Positions 20,394-26,638 of a stretch of DNA of 47,841 nt are shown in pieces. Source of the DNA: Bacillota bacterium (GTDB lineage: Bacteria > Bacillota > Limnochordia > Darwinibacteriales > Darwinibacteriaceae); assembly GCA_012838305.1 (NCBI GenBank), contig DUPN01000001.1, forward strand, positions 1 to 47,841, read 5' to 3'. The notes under the pieces were generated by a model, which was not told where the DNA came from, ran no database searches, and was given only the letters and a program-made list of their open reading frames with translations. A program made the position numbers and the translations under genes. The stretch's first letter is position 1; the number at the start of each line of letters is the position of its first letter.

Positions 20394-20597
20394 ACCAAAA
20401 CCCCTCTCTTTTTTCTTCCATAATGGTACATCACTTGTCTTTCTCCATGTGCTGCCAATTCCCTGCCTTGTCCGGTAGAAGCGGTGAACACAGGGCATGG
20501 CAGAATCCAAAAATGTCGACGGGGAAAAGAGGGATTTGTGCCGGTATGGCGAAAATAGGAATTAATCCTGTTACTTGTCAAAGGAGGTTCAAAGGCG

Positions 20598-21314
20598 ATG
20601 AAAGAGTTTGAAGCTGGCTGCCAGCGACCGAAGGCGCAAGCAAAACCCGCCCTGGAAACTGCAGCTACACCAGTGGTTCAGAAAGGAGAGCAAAAGACGA
20701 TGATTCGAGTTGGAAAACCGGCCCCAGAATTCATAGCTCCAGGATTTCACCGAGGGAAGTTTGTAGAGATGAATCTGGCTGATTATCGAGGAAAGTGGGT
20801 TATGCTCTGTTTCTATCCGGGCGATTTCACCTTCGTCTGAGCAACAGAAGTTTCAGCAGTTGCTGAAAAACACCCTGAGTTTGTGAAATTAGGAGTCGAG
20901 GTATTCTCCATCAGTGTGGACAGTGTTTTTGTCCACAAGATCTGGAATGACAAAGAACTGTCCAAGATGTTGGGCGGTAAAGATGTACCTTTTGCTATGC
21001 TTTCTGATCAAAGCGGCAGCATTGGTCAGCTCTATGGAGTGTATGATGAAGAGGCAGGTACAGAAACTCGCGGCCGTTTCATCATTGACCCCGATGGCAT
21101 TATCCAGGCCTTCGAAGTCATGACCCCACCAGTAGGCCGGAATGTGAAAGAGACATTGCGGCAGATTCAAGCCTTCCAGCTCGTGCGGGAAGCCAAGGGT
21201 ACTCAAGTGACCCCAGCTGGTTGGAGACCGGGTAAGAAGACGCTCAAACCAGGCCCCGACTTGGTGGGTAATGTCTGGCAGGAATGGAAAGTGCAAGAAG
21301 CCTTTGAAGAATAG
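20598..21314 (+). CDS. Selenocysteine-containing peroxiredoxin (AhpC/Prx1-like), UGA read as Sec
   Basis: One gene interrupted by an in-frame TGA at 20838-20840. The protein before it ends CFYPGDFTFV and continues after it as ATEVSAVAEKHPEF, so the TGA stands exactly where peroxiredoxins have the peroxidatic cysteine (FTFVCPTE). A SECIS-like hairpin follows. The C-terminal part is a normal AhpC tail (GRFIIDPDG, PAGWRPGKKTLKPGPDLVG). It would reduce hydroperoxides. The resolving cysteine of AhpC (VCPAGW) is Thr here (VTPAGW). Two starts are possible: ATG 20598 (AGGAGG at ten bases; 238 residues, Sec81, with a Cys8 in an extra N-terminal tail) or ATG 20700 (GGAG upstream; 204 residues, Sec47, the canonical position). 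A sequencing error or dead gene is the alternative, but the exact position and hairpin argue against it. Confidence 0.85.
20838..20868 (+). promoter_or_regulatory. UGA codon and SECIS-like hairpin for selenocysteine insertion
   Basis: The TGA at 20838-20840 is followed after 10 bases by a perfect 7-bp stem (20851-20857 with 20862-20868) with apical loop AGTT. The loop begins 17 bases after the TGA and has G as its second base. That fits the known bacterial SECIS pattern: hairpin about 16-37 nt after UGA, G among the first two loop bases. Confidence 0.8.
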
Positions 21315-21336: not shown

Positions 21337-21364
21337 AAGCCTCGTCCCCGGACGAGGCTTTTTT
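21337..21364 (+). terminator. Intrinsic terminator after the peroxiredoxin
   Basis: A 10-bp perfect stem (21337-21346 with 21351-21360), loop CCCG, then a run of T. It shows the message continues to the end of the second half of the selenoprotein frame. Confidence 0.92.
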
Positions 21365-21440
21365 CGCCGCAAATATTCCCAAGTATCACCCCCTGCAGCC
21401 GGTGAGAAGCTACCTGTAGCGAATATGGGAGTGAAGACAA

Positions 21441-22577
21441 ATGGGCAAGACCATCCTTATCCTCGGCGGAGGAACCGGTGGAGTGGTAGCTGCCAATGTA
21501 CTTGCCAAAGTACTGCCTAAGGAACACCGCATCGCTTTGATCGACAGAAACGAGAACCATCTCTTCCTGGCGAGCCTGCCCCTGGTGATGATCGGTAAAC
21601 GTAAGCCAAGCCAAATTACCCGCAGCCTAAGAAAACTTGAGAGTAGGAATATTCAGTTCATCCAAGCGGAAGTGGAGGGTTTCAATCCCCACGAGAAGAC
21701 GATCCAAACGGACCTAGGCGCTCTTTCCTACGATAGCTTAGTTATTGCCCTGGGTGCAGAACAACAAGGTCTACCTGGATACTCCTTGGCAATGAACCCC
21801 TACAGTCTTCAGGGAGCCCTCCAGCTTCAAACGGAGTTGTCCCGCTTTAGACAGGGTCATATTGTGCTATTCGTCTCCAGCCTGCCCTTCACAGGGGCCA
21901 TAGCCCCCTATGAAATTGTCCTCCTCCTAGACGCCTATTTTCGTCAACGCGGACTCCGCAAGAAGGTCCAGATCTCTCTGGTTACACCTGAAGACCGTCT
22001 GCTGAGCATGGCCAGTCCCCGGCATAGTGCCAGACTGGCAGAAATCCTGACAAAGAGGCAGATCAGGATGCATACCTCGACTGAAGCCCAGTCCCTCTCC
22101 CAAGACCGCTCCCTAACTCTGCATCCCGGGGATATTACAGGGGATCTCTTTTTGGGAATTCCCCACCACCTCGGCCCCGCTCCCCTTCGCCACTCTCCTG
22201 TGGCAGATCCACAAGGCTGGATCAAGGTGGACCCACACACGCTAGCAACCTGCTGCCCCGATGTGTACGCGGTTGGTGACGCTACAGGAATCGTCTCAGT
22301 CAATGGGGCCTGGATCCCCAAAGTGGGCTTTTTTGCCCACTATCAAGCGGAAGTCGTCGCCCGTAACTTGGCCCTGTGCTATGCCAACAAAGAGTCGCGC
22401 TTCCGTTTTGTGGGTTCAGCATCAGGCGCCTCGATGCTCTCCGGCTACAATCGAGGCTGTTTTGTCTCGATACAAGCATACGCCAACCCCCCCACTGGAA
22501 GTCTTTCCACTCCAAACAGAGCTGCTTTCTGGACAAAAGCCCTCTTCGAAAAATACTGGCTGTCCCGCTGGTTTTAA
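21441..22577 (+). CDS. FAD/NAD(P)-dependent oxidoreductase, SQR/NDH-2-like
   Basis: A 378-residue two-dinucleotide-binding flavoprotein. The N-terminal FAD site is LILGGGTGGVVAANVL and the C-terminal FAD site is CCPDVYAVGDAT, followed by KVGFFAHYQAEVVARN, the pattern of sulfide:quinone reductase and type II NADH dehydrogenase relatives. The cysteine that SQRs carry before the APYE motif is missing (LPFTGAIAPYE), so true sulfide oxidation is doubtful. It may pass electrons to quinone or another acceptor. It follows the peroxiredoxin terminator and probably has its own promoter in 21365-21440, though I could not define one. Confidence 0.8.
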   Translation: MGKTILILGGGTGGVVAANVLAKVLPKEHRIALIDRNENHLFLASLPLVMIGKRKPSQITRSLRKLESRNIQFIQAEVEGFNPHEKTIQTDLGALSYDSLVIALGAEQQGLPGYSLAMNPYSLQGALQLQTELSRFRQGHIVLFVSSLPFTGAIAPYEIVLLLDAYFRQRGLRKKVQISLVTPEDRLLSMASPRHSARLAEILTKRQIRMHTSTEAQSLSQDRSLTLHPGDITGDLFLGIPHHLGPAPLRHSPVADPQGWIKVDPHTLATCCPDVYAVGDATGIVSVNGAWIPKVGFFAHYQAEVVARNLALCYANKESRFRFVGSASGASMLSGYNRGCFVSIQAYANPPTGSLSTPNRAAFWTKALFEKYWLSRWF

Positions 22578-23039: not shown

Positions 23040-23660
23040 ATGTTTGAACAAGCGAAATTGACATACGACTTTGGTGCTTTGGAACCCCATATTGACAAGT
23101 TGACCATGGAGATTCACTACGGTAAACATCATACGGCCTACACCAACAACCTGAACGGAGCCTTAGAGAAACTACCGAACCTCAAGGGGAAGAGCATTGA
23201 AGAGATCTTGACCAACCTTAGTGCCATCAGTGACCCCTCTCTGCAAACCGCGGTGCGAAACAATGGTGGTGGATACTACAATCACAATCTCTTCTTTGGA
23301 GTTTTGGGGCCCGAGGGGGGCCGAGAACCCGCGGGTACTCTGGGGAAGCAGATTGAAACGGACTTTGGCGGCTTTAGCGAGCTTAAAACGGAACTTATGG
23401 CAGCCGCTCTCGGGGTGTTCGGCTCCGGTTGGGCTTGGCTGTCCACCGACAAGGCCGGCAAACTTCAGGTGACCAAAACGCCCAATCAAGACAACCCCCT
23501 CATGACCCATGGCGGGGAGCTCATTCCCATTTTGGGCATTGACGTTTGGGAGCACGCCTACTACCTTAAGTACAAAAACGTACGCCCGGACTACGTCAAC
23601 GCCATCTTCAATGTCCTGGACTGGGAGAAAGTAGCCAAGCTCTATCAAACGGCAAAATAA
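23040..23660 (+). CDS. sodA: Superoxide dismutase, Fe/Mn family
   Basis: A 206-residue enzyme that converts superoxide to oxygen and peroxide. The four metal ligands are visible: His in EIHYGKHH, His in YYNHNLFF, and Asp and His in GIDVWEHAYY. The active-site glutamine lies in the PNQDNPLM segment, the arrangement of Mn-type enzymes, but metal choice from sequence is not certain. AAGGAG lies upstream of the ATG. It is monocistronic with its own promoter and terminator. Peroxide it makes could be removed by the nearby selenoperoxiredoxin. Confidence 0.95.
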   Translation: MFEQAKLTYDFGALEPHIDKLTMEIHYGKHHTAYTNNLNGALEKLPNLKGKSIEEILTNLSAISDPSLQTAVRNNGGGYYNHNLFFGVLGPEGGREPAGTLGKQIETDFGGFSELKTELMAAALGVFGSGWAWLSTDKAGKLQVTKTPNQDNPLMTHGGELIPILGIDVWEHAYYLKYKNVRPDYVNAIFNVLDWEKVAKLYQTAK

Positions 23661-26545: not shown

Positions 26546-26638
26546 CCTATCCCCCCCGTACTTGGTTCGGTCATGAATAGGTTCTCCAAGAAAAAGACAT
26601 TCATGCGGGTTTCCCGGCTATCCTGAAGGCGAAAAGCA

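Follow-up and report, generated by a model that had tools for sequence, protein, structure and literature searches.

The gene at 20598-21314 raises a simple question: does the TGA codon that interrupts an AhpC-type peroxiredoxin frame end the protein, or is it read as selenocysteine at the catalytic position? The gene lies on the forward strand of the window, the whole stretch of 47,841 nucleotides analysed here. On comparative sequence evidence we consider it very probable (about 97%) that it encodes a PrxU-type selenoprotein, in which SelB, Sec-tRNA(Sec) and a hairpin would decode UGA 20838 as Sec81.

A peroxiredoxin frame interrupted by UGA

Read directly, the prxU frame runs from MKEFEAGC to YPGDFTFV, meets the TGA at 20838-20840 and continues with ATEVSAVAEKHPEF to a complete C-terminus. 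It stays open for 157 codons after the TGA, up to a TAG stop, and UGA readthrough gives a selenocysteine-containing AhpC-type peroxiredoxin of 238 aa. The readthrough product matches AhpC-TSA (PF00578, 8.6e-37) and carries a 1-cysPrx_C domain; the single frame with a full AhpC-type C-terminus described earlier in a sequence-only reading is thus confirmed both by reading and by domains. In an NCBIfam search the product scored 391.7 bits against the equivalog cut-off of 270 for NF040737 (peroxi_PrxU), with a match spanning nearly the whole model, and 190.3 bits against the cut-off of 272 for the AhpC equivalog TIGR03137. Related solved peroxiredoxin structures were found at 1.5e-47, and an AlphaFold model shows a confident peroxiredoxin core (mean pLDDT 84, pTM 0.80). 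The gene is a further PrxU, a family already named and provided with its own NCBIfam model, and it is the sole strong AhpC-type peroxiredoxin found in the genome to which the window belongs. ORF calling with table 11 cuts it into 20598-20840 and 20883-21314, exactly the kind of breakage that had been forecast for automatic annotation: standard ORF calling would split prxU although it is, on the reading we favour, a real selenoenzyme.

Decoding of the UGA codon

In alignments with solved peroxiredoxins, for example AcePrx-1 (4fh8), the TGA takes the place of the peroxidatic Cys, which bears out the earlier claim that it replaces precisely this codon, and the TxxU active-site motif is present as T78-F-V-U81. 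When the aligned codon was compared in 59 loci from GTDB genomes of many phyla, a comparison of homologues for UGA or Cys that the sequence-only reading had recommended, it was TGA in 57 and TGC in two, one TGC (L075, Dehalococcoidia) belonging to the PrxU clade and one (L078) to a distant AhpC. Within the window's class, all 19 PrxU genes over the cut-off have one TGA, at the aligned codon. A phylum draw of 399 genomes yielded 50 matches, each holding at least one TGA, and the aligned codon is TGA in the 29 that were read in detail. The TGC locus inside the clade, from Dehalococcoidia bacterium LH_S1 (L075:3657), has close relatives that still carry TGA (L071 and L073) and is a probable case of Sec-to-Cys change.

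A hairpin, TTTCAGC-AGTT-GCTGAAA, begins 10 nt past the TGA and occupies 20851-20868, with the 7-bp stem (UUUCAGC/GCUGAAA) and AGUU loop that had been noticed from the sequence. Bacterial SECIS elements are described as coding-region structures immediately 3' of the UGA, with a small G-containing apical loop (PMC1088965), and the prxU hairpin agrees with this description on each count. No SECIS family, nor any other, passed when the window was scanned with Rfam at gathering thresholds; the hairpin was therefore tested on its own alignment. Moreover, the evidence for it is comparative because the single-sequence fold of the region is no better than shuffles (z = -0.31, 64/200).

In the alignment 87.8% of the cells are paired (0/500 shuffles), covariation reaches 0.391 compared to 0.123 after shuffling (0/500) and double-changed cells number 69 compared to 22.4 (0/500), all of these figures exceeding those of slid controls. 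The stem joins third bases of codons, that of a Ser TCN with that of an Ala GCN and, across the loop, that of an Ala GCN with that of a Val GTN. Among relatives, the Ser/Ala pair occurs in all four Watson-Crick types (A-T, G-C, C-G and T-A) and the ends of the loop are mostly A-T or G-C (A-U or G-C in the RNA, leaving GU), with nearly no mismatches in either pair. On the protein tree, pairs 18/27 and 21/24 need 10 joint changes each, about as many as their single sides (9+9 and 8+10), and thus the two sides of the stem change in concert. For other third-position pairs nearby, the number of joint changes is 15-32. Tree-based sign tests on independent pairs gave none in the wrong direction, with at most five well-supported pairs, too few to reach 0.05. 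Cys-type AhpC genes of the window's class form 0-3 of the 8 stem pairs, against 7-8 of 8 in the TGA genes. By its covariation, the hairpin behaves as a SECIS element under selection, and prxU thereby contributes a clean SECIS of which the support is evolutionary.

The host genome, a 121-contig draft that has prxU on a different contig from the sel genes, encodes the full set of genes that had been suggested for a search, among them selA, selB and selC, whose absence had been named as evidence against a selenoprotein. selA (C80:31882-33228) and selB (C80:30005-31861) adjoin each other and both lack an internal UGA; selC, a tRNA-Sec with anticodon TCA, lies beside them. selD is located on contig C118, its own frame carrying a Sec-type TGA at GGG-U-TAK followed by a hairpin, GGACC-GGA-GGTCC. 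Across the class, selB was found in 14 of the 19 genomes whose PrxU exceeds the cut-off and in 19 of the remaining 54 (Fisher p = 0.0065, kinship ignored). Three of the five selB-less PrxU genomes have selA, bringing those with selB or selA to 17 of 19; the other two (G044 and G049), fragmented drafts of which G044 is 75% complete, gave neither gene at the thresholds used. The association is also seen in gene order elsewhere: in Thauera phenolivorans the order is prxU, selA, selB, and selA adjoins prxU on its downstream side in Thiocapsa.

Could the TGA instead be a nonsense mutation of TGC or TGT in a dead gene, or a misread base? A single base change is enough to turn either Cys codon into TGA, and homologues with Cys at this position do exist. 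However, the same TGA recurs in independent genomes of several phyla, coding is conserved in the alignment over 150 codons past it, the SECIS covaries and the genome has the full Sec machinery. Independent assemblies, some from the same genus and some from other phyla, have TGA at the aligned codon; this excludes a TGC or TGT misread at 20838, which the earlier reading had named as the result that would overturn it. We regard a pseudogene or an error as highly improbable, and no more credible is the decoding of UGA as some other amino acid, whether by a general code with UGA=Trp or by nonspecific readthrough. Such decoding would leave the prxU frame open across the UGA, as is observed, but the codon coincides exactly with that of the catalytic Cys, the gene has the hairpin and the genome has selABC/selD, selA and selB of the same genome are free of internal UGA and the window's other TGA readthrough candidates resemble ORFs that adjoin by chance rather than genes containing UGA. 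The TGA is more than chance, because it stands at the aligned codon across phyla and is accompanied by compensatory synonymous changes in the hairpin. The selenoprotein peroxiredoxin proposed from the sequence is therefore supported, by the NF040737 match, the sel genes, the conserved TGA and the SECIS covariation among other evidence.

Catalytic residues, N-terminal extension and second start

The comparative evidence for the UGA decoding step is strong: the hairpin that begins 10 nt past the UGA, acting together with SelB and Sec-tRNA(Sec), would have Sec81 inserted there in place of a stop. The chemistry that would follow is predicted from the family: as the peroxidatic residue, Sec81 would attack H2O2 or organic peroxides and be converted to a selenenic acid. 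Thioredoxin-dependent peroxidase activity is likewise a prediction, given only by the family name. The protein lacks the classical resolving Cys near its C-terminus, and we therefore infer that the selenenic acid is probably reduced in one of two other ways: a thioredoxin-like partner may act on it directly, or it may first react with Cys71 or with Cys8 of the N-terminal extension.

The residue at the resolving position of 2-Cys peroxiredoxins is Thr205 (21210-21212), as seen from the structure and family alignments: it aligns with a Cys of AcePrx-1, and the window's protein lacks the resolving Cys in V-C-P. Most relatives have Thr, Ala, Met or Leu at this position; 10 of 59 loci, from several phyla and otherwise PrxU in sequence, keep the Cys, as do all 11 Cys-type AhpC controls. 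Cys71 (20808-20810, in LCFYP) was found in 58 of 58 aligned PrxU, in 29 further PrxU and in none of the 11 Cys-type controls, where Val or Phe takes its place. A Syntrophus/Dehalococcoidia group within the PrxU clade (L070-L073 and L075) is without the N-terminal extension described below and has CVU or CVC instead of FVU (TCVU or TCVC with the preceding Thr), which puts a Cys two positions ahead of the catalytic one.

The extension (20598-20699) consists of a GCxRP motif containing Cys8, a residue present in 47 of the 48 sequences with that column filled, and a variable linker that is probably disordered in the model, pLDDT falling below 50 at residues 10-32. Its start, ATG 20598, is preceded by a Shine-Dalgarno sequence, AAAGGAGG (20580-20600 with the start; duplex -12.8 kcal/mol). 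Long-form prxU genes keep an in-frame ATG where extension-less genes start, and an AAGGAGG-like stretch, which also encodes KEE or KGE, precedes it; genes having only the short form begin at this very position. In the window, this corresponds to AAAGGAGA (encoding KGE) and ATG 20700 (20682-20702), from which a 204-aa short form is predicted on family-level evidence.

Does the stretch serve initiation, or does it merely mirror a conserved KEE/KGE peptide in a gene that makes the long protein only? The KGE/KEE residues are themselves conserved, and for the window gene alone the internal Shine-Dalgarno exceeds its codon null only slightly (-8.7 vs -7.2, p 0.17), as expected if ATG 20700 is no start. 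Against this, the mean anti-Shine-Dalgarno energy of 15 diverse genes (<75% identity, window included) is -11.3 vs -6.8 kcal/mol (sd 0.79), a value reached by 0 of 2000 codon-preserving shuffles, a null that treats genes as independent though they are related; other internal ATGs in prxU genes average -4.6. A second set, made up of 20 other long-form genes, gave the same result (-12.5 vs -6.3, 0/2000 under the same null). The common start of the short-only genes also speaks against a long protein only, as does the codon used where the Met is replaced by V or L: in the three such genes checked, it is GTG (L125 and L133) or TTG (L115). Val has four codons, of which GTG is one, and Leu has six, of which TTG is one; the three cases therefore fit start-codon selection, in a small number of genes; a fourth gene with the Met replaced (L137) has no start codon there.

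Altogether, a gene making only the long protein seems to us rather unlikely, and the conserved second start of the long-form genes suggests that two protein forms are made. For the family, dual initiation has good support, and it is likely in the window's prxU as well, with start 20700 probably giving a short form without the extension. With somewhat less assurance, we favour a general scheme in which long-form prxU genes are dual-start genes that encode a short Sec-peroxiredoxin and a long form bearing an N-terminal redox arm (GCxRP), Cys8 being a candidate resolving residue in place of the lost Cys at the C-terminus. A limited literature search returned no analysis of an internal start or of the resolving Cys in PrxU, which describes that search and does not establish absence from the literature. 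The gene thus raises several points about PrxU: the loss of the resolving Cys together with a PrxU-specific Cys71, the conserved N-terminal Cys and the conserved second start.

A separate observation concerns a Tissierellia MAG. In its prxU extension (L034:2838-2915), the codon next to the conserved Cys is another in-frame TGA (VSC-U-GVEP), and a hairpin, ACCUUC-GGUG-GAAGGU, comes after it. In this one sequence, the product may be a double selenoprotein that has a CU redox pair, or the extension may be broken and the short form retained.

Neighbouring genes and known systems

Directly past prxU, at 21338-21365, the sequence reads as a hairpin like that of an intrinsic terminator, AGCCTCGTCC-CC-GGACGAGGCT, with a run of T after it. 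Farther along the forward strand lie a FAD/NAD(P) oxidoreductase, distantly like type III sulfide:quinone reductases in its domain and NCBIfam matches (21441-22577), and a Fe/Mn superoxide dismutase identified by domain match (23040-23660), which adds an oxidative-stress context. A similar oxidoreductase occurs near prxU in two other loci (L024 and L026). Its best NCBIfam match in the window is SQR_III_seleno, and the possibility that it too is a selenoprotein was rejected: the score is 196 against a cut-off of 525, and the frame ends in TAA without a conserved continuation. When the window's remaining TGAs were read through, no further convincing selenoprotein frame emerged, the long extensions at 26624, 34303, 9376 and 5405 looking like adjacent genes that share a frame by chance. 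In two other loci, the gene before prxU encodes an ODP-family metallo-beta-lactamase-fold protein (L066:3810-4994 and L070:3648-4871), a neighbour that would fit oxygen or peroxide defence.

That Sec-peroxiredoxins exist, as the sequence-only reading stated, has been known since 2001: the founding PrxU is that of Eubacterium acidaminophilum (Sohling et al. 2001, as cited in PMC8533274), 12 Sec-containing Prx genes were counted in a 2006 survey (PMC1794560) and a 2026 review lists Sec-containing Prx (TxxU), with active site PxxxTxxU, among the established prokaryotic selenoproteins (PMC13188914). The window's gene resembles PrxU (NF040737) in its over-cut-off match, its TxxU active site, a SECIS directly past the UGA and a host with Sec machinery. 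No defining difference was seen in this comparison, made through the family model rather than the founding member's sequence; genes of the window's long-form type have in addition the N-terminal extension and second start. With AhpC and typical 2-Cys peroxiredoxins (TIGR03137; PF00578 + PF10417) it shares the fold, the DFTFV surroundings and a 1-cysPrx_C region with PAGWRPGK, but it stays below their equivalog cut-off (190 vs 272) and has Sec for the peroxidatic Cys, Thr for the resolving Cys and a gained Cys71. Other bacterial selenoproteins that are Prx-like or thiol peroxidases, the Prx-like thiol:disulfide oxidoreductases and Prx-SUH (PMC13188914), belong to different families with UxxC, UxxU or CxxU motifs, whereas the window's protein is TxxU and of the AhpC/Prx1 type.
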